A DNA stretch of 61,403 nucleotides, from contig CAJOLX010000007.1 of the NCBI GenBank assembly GCA_905235625.1, forward strand, positions 50,476 to 111,878, written 5' to 3'. Of the stretch, positions 57,086 to 61,157 are shown piece by piece. A program made the position numbers and the translations under genes. Below the pieces are notes generated by a model. It was not told the DNA's origin. It did no database searches and saw only the letters and a list, made by a program, of their open reading frames with translations. Positions within the stretch are counted from its first letter, which is position 1. Every line of letters starts with the position of its first letter. This DNA comes from an uncultured Clostridia bacterium (lineage in GTDB: Bacteria > Bacillota > Clostridia > Oscillospirales > Acutalibacteraceae).

Positions 57086-57622
57086 TTATTTAAAGTCCGA
57101 AATAAGTTTGCGGTTTCTTATAAAATATTCGATAAGCGAAACTATCGTAAGGGCTGTGGCAATATAGACGATAATTCTTGTAAATACGTGCAAAACCGGA
57201 ATATCGGCAATGAGCAAAATCACCATCGTCATCTGAAAAACGGTTTTCACCTTGCCCCACATGCCTGCCGCGATAACGACTCCCGCGTCTGCGGCAACGA
57301 GGCGGAACCCGCTGATGATAAATTCGCGCGCGATTATCACGATAACTATCCACGCCTCAAGCTTCTGAAGGCCGCAAAGGCATATGAGCGCAGAGCTTAC
57401 GAGCAGCTTATCAGCCAAAGGGTCCATAAGCTTTCCGAAGTTTGTAACGAGGCCGCGCGCTCTGGCAATTCTGCCGTCCGCAAAATCGGTAAGGCTCGAC
57501 AAAACAAAAATGACGAGCGCGACCCATTTTTGCCCTTCCCAGCCGGTGTTTATAAGCATAGCCGTCACAAAGAACGGTATCATAACAATGCGTGTCAATG
57601 TCAGTTTGTTAGGCAAATTCAT
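57086..57622 (-). CDS. pgsA: CDP-diacylglycerol-glycerol-3-phosphate 3-phosphatidyltransferase
   Basis: A 178-residue polytopic enzyme. The CDP-alcohol phosphotransferase motif DGxxARxxGxxxxxGxxxDxxxD is seen as DFADGRIARARG and FGKLMDPLADK. NLPNKLTLTRIVMIPFFV is the family's N-terminus. It makes phosphatidylglycerol phosphate for anionic lipids. ATG 57622 has GGGGGAAG upstream. The frame upstream to 57736 is not supported. Confidence 0.95.
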   Translation of the reverse strand: MNLPNKLTLTRIVMIPFFVTAMLINTGWEGQKWVALVIFVLSSLTDFADGRIARARGLVTNFGKLMDPLADKLLVSSALICLCGLQKLEAWIVIVIIAREFIISGFRLVAADAGVVIAAGMWGKVKTVFQMTMVILLIADIPVLHVFTRIIVYIATALTIVSLIEYFIRNRKLISDFK

Positions 57623-57789
57623 ATTTCTTCCCCCTTTAAAAAATATAATGCGGTTTACAGCTGTAGTATATATCGGTTCGGCAAATTTTGCAATATTCAA
57701 ATTAAAAAAGAGACTGCCCTTATCTCTGCCGGACATTCAATCAACAACGAAACCGGAGAATAAATCGACAATCTCTCAAAAAAAGAAAC

Positions 57790-58014
57790 AATGCTGAAAG
57801 GGCGGGGCTGACCGAAATCGAATCAGGCTTGTCGCCAGCAAACATTGTTTCCGATAACAATATATCACCTACCGATGAAAATGTCAACAGTGAAAAATCC
57901 TATGCAGCTGCCCGTGACAGCGAGTATACAGGTTCACCGGATAAAAACGGCGAGGCAGCAAAAAGGCTGCGAAACTTGTTGAGCAGGCTGCGAAGGAAGC
58001 AGGATATTCAAAAA
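57790..58014 (+). pseudogene. Decayed fragment of a large polyvalent/phage-type protein
   Basis: The frame around 57829-57965 reads NIVSDNNISPTDENVNSEKS and SYAAARDSEYTGSPD, and after a frame change reads VEQAAKEAGYSK. From memory, such Ser/Asn-rich linkers followed by DSEY and EAAKEAGY are typical of large polyvalent proteins of phages and conjugative elements. No start signal, no intact frame and several stops are seen, so it is a remnant. Plus-strand fragments with the same flavour (KAPSLSVP, CIKFSLR) continue to about 58345 in other frames, beneath the small-RNA array. Confidence 0.5.
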
Positions 58015-58082
58015 ACAGAAGCACCCTTGCCGGTGAAGTGACGGGTCCAATTCCCGCCCATTATAGCGCAGGTGCTTCTGTT
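58010..58082 (-). ncRNA. Candidate small RNA 1 (about 73 nt)
   Basis: The transcript predicted from promoter P1 would begin at about 58082, at the base of an 11-bp terminal stem, ACAGAAGCACC (58071-58081) with GGTGCTTCTGT (58015-58025). A T6 tract (58010-58015) overlaps the base of the 3' arm. Inside lies a hairpin GGCGGG/CCCGTC with loop AATTGGA. The start, stem and U-tract coincide as in an independent small RNA gene. The family is not recognised. Confidence 0.6.
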
Positions 58083-58088
58083 AAAGTT

Positions 58089-58117
58089 AAGATAGCACAA
58101 GTTTCCGATTCTGTCAA
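58089..58117 (-). promoter_or_regulatory. Promoter P1 of small RNA 1
   Basis: Perfect TTGACA (58112-58117), a 17-bp spacer and TATCTT (58089-58094) on the minus strand. Confidence 0.65.
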
Positions 58118-58121
58118 GCGC

Positions 58122-58202
58122 AAAAAAAAGAAGCAGCCGGCTTGACGCCCACGTCCTCAGGTGATGCCGATAAAGCACCATCCCTATCCGTTCCTGCTTC
58201 TG
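58122..58202 (-). ncRNA. Candidate small RNA 2 (about 81 nt)
   Basis: Downstream of P2, a terminal stem AGAAGCAG (58194-58201) with CTGCTTCT (58129-58136) begins at the predicted start site, and a T8 tract overlaps the end of its 3' arm. Inner pairs include GACG-TGGG-CGTC. Outer-stem sequence (AGAAGCA...TGCTTCT) is shared with small RNA 1, while the interior differs, so they may be related genes. Confidence 0.6.
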
Positions 58203-58207
58203 TCATT

Positions 58208-58236
58208 AATATATCACAGTTATTGAATATTGTCAA
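58208..58236 (-). promoter_or_regulatory. Promoter P2 of small RNA 2
   Basis: Perfect TTGACA (58231-58236), a 17-bp spacer and TATATT (58208-58213) on the minus strand. Confidence 0.68.
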
Positions 58237-58265
58237 GGATAATCTTTCGAAAAGCATTTCTCAGT

Positions 58266-58341
58266 AAAAGAAAAACCAGCCGCTGAGCATGAAGAACGAG
58301 ATTGCATCAAGTTCTCCCTCCGGAACAACGGTCGATTTCGA
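58266..58341 (-). ncRNA. Candidate small RNA 3 (about 75 nt)
   Basis: From promoter P3 the RNA would start near 58341. CGACCGTTG (58326-58334) can pair with CAGCGGCTG (58277-58285) with one mismatch and two G-U pairs, and a TTTTTCTTTT tract follows. The plan matches the two RNAs downstream, but the stem is weaker and begins about 6 bases after the start. An SD-like GGAGGGAG occurs in the interior. Confidence 0.45.
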
Positions 58342-58346
58342 TTGAT

Positions 58347-58375
58347 AGTTTAACACGCGAAAGTGCTTTTGTCAA
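58347..58375 (-). promoter_or_regulatory. Promoter P3 of small RNA 3
   Basis: Perfect TTGACA (58370-58375), a 17-bp spacer and TAAACT (58347-58352) on the minus strand, 40 bases beyond the methyltransferase stop codon. Confidence 0.62.
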
Positions 58376-58414
58376 GCGCGAAAAATTGTGAATCGCAACT
58401 TAAAGTTTAAACGC

Positions 58415-59161
58415 TCACTTTTTGAAAATAAATAAATACTCATGAGCAATAAGCAAAAAATTATATTTTACACTGTTCGTTTTCCAATATCCCGTTGCCT
58501 TGCAGTTGTGCTGCTCTTTAATTATAAGTTCTTTCAGCTTAAAGCCTGCATCTTGAAAAATCCGCATAACTTCAAAAGACATTGGAATCATGTGGCCTTT
58601 TTGGCGGGTATCTCCCATCAGTATGGCGCAGAACTTATCCTTTTTCAAAACTCGATAGCTCTCACAAGCAACCTTTTTCATTTCGTCAAGGAACAGCGGT
58701 ATTTTAAGGCGCGACAAATCTTCCGGAATATCTTCACTGTATTGTATGATATCCGCATACGGCGGATGAGTGCATATCAGATCAATACTGCCGTCAGGTA
58801 TAAAGTCAAGATTTCGGGCGTCGCCCTTGTGAATATATACATTGCCGTCAGCGCCCTCATGCACAAAATCAATTTTCTCGCGACAGCGTTCAATGGCGTC
58901 GTCATTAACGTCCACTCCGATAATATTTCGGTTTAACAGCTTTGCCTCAACCAAAGTCGTACCGCCTCCGGCAAACTGATCGAGGACTAAATCGCCCTCT
59001 TGAGAATAGCGAAGCAGCACATTCCTCGGAATATAAGGCGACCAATTTCCGCGCCATTTTGCGTCATGAGTCGCCCACTTTCCCCTGTCGGGAAATGACC
59101 ATACAGTGCTCGTTTCAAGTTCAAAATTTTCGGGCTGCCAATTTTTAATCTTATTACTCAT
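58415..59161 (-). CDS. DNA methyltransferase (N4/N6 amino type, DpnA-like position)
   Basis: A 248-residue amino-methyltransferase. Motif I is LDQFAGGGTTLVEAKL (about 60-75), and the catalytic motif IV is ICTHPPYADIIQYS (about 130). The order is I before IV. It is the third gene of the GATC restriction operon, where DpnII-type systems carry a second methylase (DpnA) that can modify single-stranded DNA. That assignment is by position; another specificity is possible. Its start has no clear SD, and a weak hairpin lies before it, so expression may be lower. Confidence 0.82.
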   Translation of the reverse strand: MSNKIKNWQPENFELETSTVWSFPDRGKWATHDAKWRGNWSPYIPRNVLLRYSQEGDLVLDQFAGGGTTLVEAKLLNRNIIGVDVNDDAIERCREKIDFVHEGADGNVYIHKGDARNLDFIPDGSIDLICTHPPYADIIQYSEDIPEDLSRLKIPLFLDEMKKVACESYRVLKKDKFCAILMGDTRQKGHMIPMSFEVMRIFQDAGFKLKELIIKEQHNCKATGYWKTNSVKYNFLLIAHEYLFIFKK

Positions 59162-59192
59162 ATTTTATATTTACTCAACAAAAATCCATTTT

Positions 59193-59223
59193 AAAAAGCG
59201 ATTGCGTAGCAAAGCAACCTTTT
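59193..59223 (-). terminator. Weak hairpin between the restriction and second methylase genes
   Basis: On the minus strand AAAAGGTTGC pairs with GCAATCGCTTTTT around an 8-nt loop, followed by T5. It overlaps the restriction gene stop and may attenuate transcription into the last methylase gene. Confidence 0.4.
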
Positions 59224-60076
59224 ACAAAGTTTCTATTATGCCGTTTTCCAAATCGTTGATGTTATAAATATGATTCATAACATCAAAGGTTTCTTCTAAA
59301 TTGTGTTTGGCGCTGTTCCAACCTTTACCGTCGGTAAACCAAACAAAAGTAAATCCGTCTATAGTTTCGGCCTCTTGACTAATCTGCTTATAGCTTCGAG
59401 AAGTTTCGTTCAGTTTTGAACCTCCGCTCGCATAGAAATTAGTTTCAATACCGTAAATCATATCATCGGTTTTGATAACGAAATCAAAACGCTTTTCCAT
59501 TTTACCTTGATTGGAAATTGCAGAGAGATCAATACCCCATTTTTCTGTAATCTCGTGAATATACATTTCTTTAAAGTAAGTCTTGCCCTTTAAAAAGCCT
59601 GCTTTTTGAATGTAGCTTTCAACAAGATTTTCCATCAAATGACCGCCGCGATTCTTTCTGCCGTTGGAATCAAGCCCTGTTTCAACTCCCGTTGCATAAT
59701 CAACCAGATTATTTACAATATGATTTGAGAGCAAGTCAAAAAGGCCGGTCTTTCTCATAAATTCCTTATAACGATCTATTGTAAGATTCGGCTCTTTGAA
59801 ATTGTATATATATTCCCCGTCAGCGTCGATTGCATAAATTTCATTTGACCTGACAGCCAAAAGCACCGGAATACATTTCAATGTTTCGGGATATTTTGTA
59901 ACCAAACATTCAAATTCGTTTTCAATATCTTTTGAGCCTATCAAGGAATTTAAAATATTTAATTCCACTTTAAGGCTGTCAACGTTGCGATAAACCTTTT
60001 TAAAATCAATGTAATAACCATAGTTTGCTATACTGTCACGAAATTCAGACAGCCATAAGTTAAAATCTCTGTTCAT
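59222..60076 (-). CDS. DpnII/MboI-like type II restriction endonuclease (GATC)
   Basis: A 284-residue protein close to DpnII length (about 288). Typical DpnII blocks are GLDSNGRKNRGGHLMENLVE in the centre, FDFVIKTDDMIYGIETNFYA with the PD-(D/E)xK-like metal site, and GGSKLNETSRSY after it. It should cut unmethylated GATC. It starts 10 bases after the Dam gene stop, in the same operon, so its methylase is made first. Confidence 0.92.
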   Translation of the reverse strand: MNRDFNLWLSEFRDSIANYGYYIDFKKVYRNVDSLKVELNILNSLIGSKDIENEFECLVTKYPETLKCIPVLLAVRSNEIYAIDADGEYIYNFKEPNLTIDRYKEFMRKTGLFDLLSNHIVNNLVDYATGVETGLDSNGRKNRGGHLMENLVESYIQKAGFLKGKTYFKEMYIHEITEKWGIDLSAISNQGKMEKRFDFVIKTDDMIYGIETNFYASGGSKLNETSRSYKQISQEAETIDGFTFVWFTDGKGWNSAKHNLEETFDVMNHIYNINDLENGIIETL

Positions 60077-60086
60077 TTTAATCTCC

Positions 60087-61157
60087 TCAATAATTTGTAA
60101 TCAATAACTCATTGATTTTGCCTCTGTTTTTGCCTTTGCTGTTAATTGCGCGATTTGCAGAAACACGGTTGATATTCATGCCTGCGTATAATTCATCAAA
60201 AAAGTTGTCATTCTCATCAATATTGTGCGGATCGGAATTGCTTGCCATTACCTTTGCCGATGATAATGATTTTATGAACTCGCCGAGTTTAATTTGATCG
60301 TCATCATTAAAGCTGTCTGCGGTATACGAGGTGAAGTCGGCAGTTTTAGTTAACGGACGATAGGGAGGATCAAAATAAACAAAAGTCTTATCATCAATAA
60401 ATTGCTCAACACACGTGTAATCGCCGGTTATAATTTTGACTCCCTGCAAAAGCTCAGAGGTTTTACTGATGTTTTCTGCGTCGCAAATTGTCGGGTGCTT
60501 GTATGAACCCATAGGAACGTTAAACAATCCTTGACGATTTACACGATATAATCCATTAAAACAGGTCTTGTTAAGATAAATAAAAAGAGCTGCTCGTAAA
60601 ATAGAATTGCCCTTTGTCGGGTTTTGCATTTGGGCATTAAAGTCATCACGCTGACGATAGTAATATTCTTTTCTGCCATTGTCATCGCTGCTTAAATGGT
60701 CTTTTTCAAATTTTGCAAGTAAAGCGATTAAGCCGTCCGGATTATCTCTGACTGCTTCGTAAGTGTTTATTAACTCAGAGTTAATATCACAAATAAAAAC
60801 TTCGTCCATTTCATAAGTATTAAGCACGTCAAACAGAACAGCGCCTGCTCCGACCATCGGTTCGCAGTATTTAGTTATTTTTGTTCCCATTTCCGCCGGG
60901 TAAAATTTACGAATAGTGGAAAGCAACTGCCCTTTGCCGCCTGCCCATTTAACAAAAGGCTTTACGGGATCCTTTTTGTCATACTTTGTTGTACGCGCAT
61001 CAAGCGGCTTCTCAGCCTCCGAAGGAATTATCCACATATTGCCAAGCATAGCGACATTCGGTATTCTATTTTCTCTGCAAAGAGTAATTACTCGCCTGTG
61101 AGATATGCCCCACTTCTTTGCGGCGTCATTGGCCGATATATACTGTAACTGCTGCAT
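60087..61157 (-). CDS. Dam-type adenine methyltransferase with N-terminal helix-turn-helix
   Basis: This 356-residue protein has residues about 5-58 as a MerR/excisionase-like HTH (YISANDAAKKWGISHRRVIT and MWIIPSEAEKP), then a Dam domain: FVKWAGGKGQLL (motif X), EPMVGAGAVLFDVL (motif I), FIYLNKTCFNGLYRVN and the catalytic VYFDPPYRPLTK (DPPY). It methylates GATC adenine and protects against the DpnII-like nuclease next to it. The fused HTH suggests that it also regulates the operon. ATG 61157 follows GGGGTGAT. Confidence 0.93.
   Translation of the reverse strand: MQQLQYISANDAAKKWGISHRRVITLCRENRIPNVAMLGNMWIIPSEAEKPLDARTTKYDKKDPVKPFVKWAGGKGQLLSTIRKFYPAEMGTKITKYCEPMVGAGAVLFDVLNTYEMDEVFICDINSELINTYEAVRDNPDGLIALLAKFEKDHLSSDDNGRKEYYYRQRDDFNAQMQNPTKGNSILRAALFIYLNKTCFNGLYRVNRQGLFNVPMGSYKHPTICDAENISKTSELLQGVKIITGDYTCVEQFIDDKTFVYFDPPYRPLTKTADFTSYTADSFNDDDQIKLGEFIKSLSSAKVMASNSDPHNIDENDNFFDELYAGMNINRVSANRAINSKGKNRGKINELLITNY

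Follow-up and report, generated by a model that had tools for sequence, protein, structure and literature searches.

The window studied here, a stretch of 61,403 nucleotides from an uncultured Clostridia bacterium of the gut, carries on its minus strand four tandem units, each a promoter followed by a predicted small RNA, which we named A to D in the order of transcription. Judged by sequence, these units belong to a class of predicted structured small-RNA genes that are carried antisense by polyvalent genes of phages and mobile elements, and each of the two RNA types with the most examples is found repeatedly beside one kind of protein domain. Our boldest reading, to which we give a probability of roughly 0.4, is that MuF_C and LPD3 are putative phage-injected RNases, found in more than one phylum, which are fused to an opposite-strand RNA antitoxin, and that toxin-free arrays would constitute a heritable RNA immunity library directed at the phages that deliver these domains.

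Each unit consists of a TTGACA-N14-TGN-TANNNT promoter and a predicted RNA of ~74-83 nt with pairing ends and a T-rich 3' end (Table 1). In each, the base of the long closing stem coincides with the predicted 5' end of the RNA, and the T-rich end lies behind the other arm; unit C contains an exact 12-nt inverted repeat (58014-58025/58071-58082). An earlier note had described three of these units, with TTGACA boxes 17 nt from TAAACT, TATATT and TATCTT, and all three are present where it placed them, as is the shared outer stem AGAAGCA/TGCTTCT. As a total, three was too low, since unit D (57887) had been overlooked. The description as a tandem array of insulated promoter-plus-RNA units, with a common frame and variable cores, was correct. 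A CRISPR array has identical repeats and variable spacers; the window units differ in both stem and core, and a CRISPR-like array was therefore discarded. A plus-strand gene was discarded as well, because the plus-strand frames across the array are short and broken (108-333 nt open) while the RNA units are whole. The array is flanked on one side by a DpnII-type operon (58415-61157, minus strand; Pfam DpnII, MethyltransfD12 and N6_N4_Mtase), which encodes an endonuclease and two methylases (GATC), and on the other by a CDP-alcohol phosphatidyltransferase gene (57086-57736, minus strand). The earlier note did not recognise the RNA family, and Rfam gave no score above gathering and no match at E up to 1 for the window array; among five relatives the sole Rfam match was a tRNA.

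Table 1. Features of the window array (columns: feature, positions, strand, remarks). The second coordinate of each promoter (58375, 58236, 58117 and 57887 for A to D) is the first base of its TTGACA on the minus strand.
Promoter, unit A	58347..58375	-	TTGACA-17-TAAACT, TG before the -10 box
Predicted small RNA, unit A	58264..58341	-	Paired ends, T-rich 3' end; weak likeness to the MuF_C-embedded unit L261
Promoter, unit B	58208..58236	-	TTGACA-17-TATATT, TG before the -10 box
Predicted small RNA, unit B	58122..58204	-	Stem AGAAGCAG/CTGCTTCT, T8; no clear relative (best z 3.3)
Promoter, unit C	58089..58117	-	TTGACA-17-TATCTT, TG before the -10 box
Predicted small RNA, unit C	58010..58083	-	Stem AACAGAAGCACC/GGTGCTTCTGTT, T6; homologues: G029 unit a, L260
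Promoter, unit D	57859..57887	-	TTGACA-17-TATATT, box ending at 57859
Predicted small RNA, unit D	57778..57853	-	Stem GGAAACAATG/CATTGTTTC, T7; homologues: L214, L245, G124 orphan unit
Decayed phage polyvalent-protein linker scrap	57890..58005	+	Two frames, DSEYTGSPDKNGEAAK / AAKLVEQAAKEAGYS; compare DSEYLSLAKNPEQNEAELRKMVDEAAKNAGYS in L007/L076
Relic of linker behind an LPD3-like domain	57778..57888	+	Opposite unit D; KKRNNAERAGLTEIESGLSPANIVSDNNISPTDENVN; 62% identity to L214 over 37 aa

The window promoters are unlikely to be chance matches, because TTGAC-N15-TGNTANNNT occurs 77 times in the window genome (2.06 Mb, both strands) and 0 times in the reversed control, and because the array holds 4 of these 77 sites inside ~520 nt. 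By these counts TTGAC-N15-TGNTANNNT is a real promoter form in this organism. When two promoters in tandem, at unit spacing and with TTTTT between them, were searched for across the genus without requiring a stem, they were met in 2 of 45 genomes, namely the window genome and G029. A 3-kb window scan gave 4 terminator-like sites against 3.2 in shuffles and thus no excess, since its loop limit of 3-8 nt is blind to long-range stems.

The search for further copies that had been proposed for these units returned both tandem arrays in other genomes and antisense copies inside phage genes. Within the genus (45 genomes) a DNA search gave one weighty match beyond the window, between unit C and G029 (83% over 91 nt). 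There, three such units lie in tandem, with a metallophosphoesterase and a glycerophosphodiester phosphodiesterase, read from translations, as neighbours. The same search across the family (398 genomes) led to G124, where tRNA-Lys is followed by three units that have one promoter sequence in common and a different core each, the second unit being of the D type; the identical stretch is contig JAFQWA010000016.1 of a goat-colon Clostridia MAG. Used as a query, the G124 array led to G361, G182, G272 and G337: it matched 12 genomes, six of which hold units (G124, these four and the window genome, G000), and the matches in the other six were short, with no unit in a scan of loci L222-L227. In G182, two units lie behind ssrA. 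Identical promoters occur in G124 and G337 and in some units of G182 and G211. The unit scan misses the unit of L217 and the second units of L218 and L221, which were found by eye and by homology. In the arrays of the window, G029, G124, G361 and G182 the opposite frames measure 108-414 nt. No MuF_C match was found in the array genomes G000, G029 (76% complete), G124, G361 and G337 (85% complete), and no LPD3 match in G000; G182 has two MuF_C matches. The window genome also contains a second mini-array on contig C88 (L070, 980-1310, plus strand), with two promoter plus closed-stem units. Its opposite frame of 133 aa reads like a phage linker (SDQKIAQNSDFVK), and neither unit resembles the units compared with it.

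Several pattern searches yielded little or nothing. In IMG/VR the tandem promoter-terminator pattern occurred in at least 120 stretches, among which a stem filter left no clear relative, and both the exact unit C pattern and the inverted-repeat promoter pattern gave 0 matches. A different closed-stem RNA, preceded by a promoter of its own (TATCAGAG...CTCTGATA), is common to two viral contigs (L128 ~1230, plus strand; L178 ~6810, minus strand) and by eye is unrelated to the units. The type D pattern matched three stretches in genome contigs: the G124 array again (L213), an embedded unit (L214) and a coding stretch that probably matched by chance (L215). A distant DNA search found nothing in plasmids and a single promoter-like match in phages. 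Locus L229 matched the promoter pattern with a different operator and was set aside, and L237-L241 and L244 have the following domain in common and no unit.

Units of the same kind are embedded in large phage genes. In one gene, met both in G002 (L007, a weak match) and in a viral contig (L076), an antisense unit lies just before the linker DSEYLSLAKNPEQNEAELRKMVDEAAKNAGYS, a decayed version of which is found on the window plus strand between units C and D; on this side a weak DNA match to L007 was also obtained (58012-57978, 83%, E 0.007). Further embedded cases are L214, L220, L233, L242, L243, L245/246, L247/248 (a GC-rich unit with a poor T-run) and L249. The strand opposite to the embedded units is open for ~2 to 6 kb, often across the whole stretch examined (996 nt for the first unit of L221), and the genes that hold these domains are mostly open frames of hundreds to thousands of residues. 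The units lie antisense over the C-terminal tip and the linker of MuF_C or LPD3 domains. Pfam typed the domain before the unit in seven embedded cases: MuF_C in L076 and L242, LPD3 above the cut-off in L247 and below it in L214, L243 and L245, and PBECR3 in L220. Beside the D-type units the LPD3 scores are 17.8 bits (L214) and 20.6 bits (L245) against a Pfam cut-off of 27. The recurring protein linker (~NNIxxxxxxxVN) may be a shadow of the antisense promoter. In the promoters of L209 (1300-1740), L220 and L221 an inverted repeat, TTGACAAC...GTTGTTAG, surrounds the -35 box and the start point and is a possible repressor operator. In G182:C22 (L280, 2021-5933) LPD3, ART-PolyVal and a partial MuF_C stand in a row and alternate with four different antisense units. 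This row resembles the cassette store of polymorphic toxins, and perhaps represents a step on the way from a complete gene to an array of units alone.

The association was also met when the domains alone served as the starting point. In 200 genomes of the family, searched by Pfam family only (MuF_C, PF18819; LPD3, PF18798), MuF_C was present at 13 loci in 12 genomes, and at 13 of 13 an antisense unit follows, with the RNA starting 48-73 nt past the domain match. Synonymous-codon shuffles of these loci, which keep the protein and its codon make-up, produced a unit in 4.9% of cases on average (0.010-0.213 per locus, highest at L255, which is the same place as L233), and the same scan gave 0 matches on the sense strand. 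For LPD3, a unit was found at 7 of 9 loci, 93-144 nt past the match, compared to 2.6% in shuffles. These nine remained from ten after L270, the place of L257, was dropped; they are not all independent, as three lie in G182:C22 and two in G211:C16, and the two loci lacking a unit are L267 (decayed) and L268. In random viral DNA the scan hit rate was 0.025 per 250-nt scanning window.

A phylum-wide search (249 genomes) added two MuF_C genomes, both with a unit, one of them in a stretch with in-frame stops; the stretch of L273 has four in-frame stops. Outside the family, 5 of 7 MuF_C loci pass the strict scan, and L277 passes solely with a laxer T-run count. Relatives of MuF_C in the E. coli phages PhiR5_2 and PhiR12_3 have a unit with weak promoters (score 8), one in the Pasteurella phage Pmp11 has a unit only under the laxer T-run setting, and one on an Acinetobacter plasmid has a unit at a locus where shuffles reach 17%. 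On a Verrucomicrobiota plasmid (L285) a long stem and T7 were seen by eye, and an acceptable -10 box is missing. The unit region of PhiR5_2 was matched in 382 of 5,426 E. coli genomes, in 9 of them over at least 80% of the region; among the matches listed, the promoter side alone was matched in 7 of 8. Therefore, the promoter looks constant, and the domain tip and the RNA core look variable. MuF_C queries brought nothing new from viral contigs, no meaningful hit came from solved structures when they were searched with a profile of the MuF_C alignment, and tblastn of an LPD3 stretch in phages gave no match.

Earlier it had been asked whether a conserved plus-strand frame alone might account for the signal; the relatives in phage genes show a protein frame and, in addition, an antisense RNA signal beyond the demands of the protein. 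Embedded RNAs fold better than their synonymous shuffles (mean z -4.0, n=24, range -1.8 to -6.2), where the 24 units had been picked by the stem scan and the codon-shuffle occurrence test is the cleaner one. Of 39 units, 29 have a better fold on the unit strand than on the complementary one, and G-U pairs number 100 against 43 (p 5e-5). Related units differ at 13-42% of positions, with many pairs kept or compensated. Among 98 changed paired sites in 13 pairs of relatives, which share sequences and are thus not independent, 38 were compensated on both sides, 21 remained paired with one change and 39 were broken. Four type D sequences show 98.5% pairing and a covariation of 0.216 compared to 0.109 in shuffles, of which 8 of 500 reached the observed value, and to 0.078 at most when slid; the doubly changed pairs (2 vs 0.9 in shuffles; 78 of 500) are not decisive alone. 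In this type the sequence of the internal loops is conserved and the inner, terminal hairpin is rewritten.

Local alignments scored against shuffles link the orphan units to embedded ones. Unit C aligns with G029_a (z 36) and with L260 (z 16.6), which is embedded antisense in a MuF_C gene of G182. Unit D aligns with L214 (z 26) and L245 (z 18.9), both behind LPD3-like domains, and with G124_2 (z 18.6). For unit A a weak match was obtained to the MuF_C unit L261 (z 5.2), and unit B has no relative among the units aligned. The third unit of G124 aligns (z 12) with a unit inside an LPD3-bearing gene of G211 (L272, at 1966; the unit at the LPD3 tip is at 1378). One type, consisting of G124_1, L217 and L218_2 (z ~18-25), was met in orphans only. 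Scraps of phage protein remain in three arrays, namely on the D side of the window array and in G124 and G182, and the scrap between the G182 units behind ssrA shares 80% identity along 30 aa with the toxin-type gene of G182:C22. The stretches of G029 and G361 showed no such scrap. The window array thus looks like a set of orphan RNAs left after loss of the toxin coding sequence, since no match to MuF_C or LPD3 was obtained in the genome, the frame on the other strand is broken and linker scraps remain. A single common locus for the window and G182:C22 is not claimed, because their pgsA-like neighbours are just 33% alike over 81 aa.

What might such RNAs do? MuF-C has been described as a predicted endoRNase of proteins that the virion probably carries and injects (PMC5512222, section 19), and the domain is predicted to have the BECR fold. 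RNA lends itself naturally to the inhibition of an RNase. We therefore propose that the RNA would act as antitoxin or immunity factor for the predicted RNase domain beside it, and that it would bind the domain as a decoy or blocking substrate in a type III-like manner. Lysogens and the producing cell would thereby be spared, and a cell that has only the RNA would be protected against phages injecting these domains, like cells with orphan immunity genes in polymorphic toxin systems. We consider the chances about even that the RNAs neutralise their cognate RNase domains at the protein level, as type III antitoxins do.

The main rival is a cis-antisense silencer of the type I kind, which we regard as distinctly less probable. 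Here the RNA would pair with the polyvalent mRNA, perhaps via RNase III, and keep a late toxin gene quiet in the lysogen, and orphan arrays would silence incoming relatives in trans. The embedded RNA is exactly antisense to the gene, and toxin silencing in B. subtilis by RNase III reportedly works through antisense RNAs. The essential function of B. subtilis RNase III has been described as silencing of foreign toxin genes (PMC3531473). However, the RNA is an end-closed rod that covers just the last codons of the domain and the linker in genes that reach several kb in length, related units keep or compensate many pairs in spite of their divergence, and a silencer gives no protection against ready-made incoming protein. 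An antisense RNA would likewise be conserved with its target, so that homology by itself is compatible with both protein binding and mRNA pairing. Two arguments favour neutralisation of the protein. Orphan arrays are sensible if the RNA targets an injected protein and much less so if it targets a late mRNA, and the kept loops and rewritten hairpin of type D fit protein recognition better than target pairing.

Alternatively, instead of inhibiting the domain, the RNA could serve it as a target, guide or cofactor, for instance as an RNA that the RNase cleaves or with which it is packaged. The site beside a predicted RNase domain and the conserved internal loops fit any RNA-protein partnership, but this improbable alternative leaves unexplained the arrays with intact promoters in genomes without a MuF_C match. 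We give a similarly small chance to the view that the arrays are remnants of prophage genes and have no function. Scraps of the linker and broken frames do persist, and the G124 array and one G182 array stand behind tRNA-Lys and ssrA, which are frequent integration sites. On the other hand, all four window units retain promoter, stem and T-rich end beside a broken coding part, in G124 three cores that differ from one another have identical promoters, and the type met in orphans only shows compensated changes (G124_1 with L218_2: 3 double, 1 broken). That the units are regulatory RNAs of the neighbouring DpnII operon is scarcely credible and was rejected: the array does start 40 nt behind the operon's last gene (58415), as had been noted, but the arrays of G029, G124 and G182 adjoin unrelated genes, tRNA-Lys and ssrA, respectively, with no DpnII-type neighbour in the stretches read. 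Among the roles proposed before, 'antisense' and 'phage' were good guesses, and the defence link via the restriction operon was not supported.

The genes that carry the embedded units are those of the MuF and polyvalent-protein phage toxins (PMC5512222, PMC5576092). The word 'antisense' is absent from the main texts of both papers, and 'noncoding RNA' from that of PMC5512222. No description of these RNAs was found in a literature search outside subscription journals and preprints, nor in Rfam. Many temperate phages and mobile elements carry MuF_C or related domains, and a predicted structured RNA with its own predicted promoter at all 13 MuF_C tips offers a handle on how the producer survives and on what the domains cut. 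If our reading is true, a single stretch of DNA encodes the antitoxin on one strand and the toxin tip on the other, and, provided that the RNAs neutralise, the two would be exchangeable only together.

Like type I toxin-antitoxin systems, the embedded units have a predicted RNA that is transcribed from a promoter of its own against a prophage gene for a putative toxin; antisense to the putative toxin mRNA was found for the embedded units only. Most known toxins of type I systems are small and hydrophobic (PMC6563280), whereas the gene here is large and multidomain, and its RNA types are common to orphan arrays. In type III systems (ToxIN, CptIN) a structured RNA adjoins an endoribonuclease gene; the units would resemble them in this if MuF_C is the RNase that it is predicted to be (PMC5512222), and neutralisation of a protein by an RNA is the mode suggested here. 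In type III systems RNA and toxin are on the same strand, with the tandem-repeat RNA before the toxin gene. In contrast, the RNA described here lies antisense inside the coding sequence of the domain, has its own promoter and a terminator-like end, and is a closed rod, whereas the type III RNA repeats a pseudoknot in tandem; the putative toxin here is a domain of a phage-injected polyprotein. The orphan immunity-gene arrays of polymorphic toxin systems are immunity factors without a toxin, left by cassette turnover. The orphan arrays resemble them as collections of putative immunity factors without a toxin and differ in that the elements there are protein genes and here RNA units; if our reading is true, they would be a new form of anti-phage immunity.
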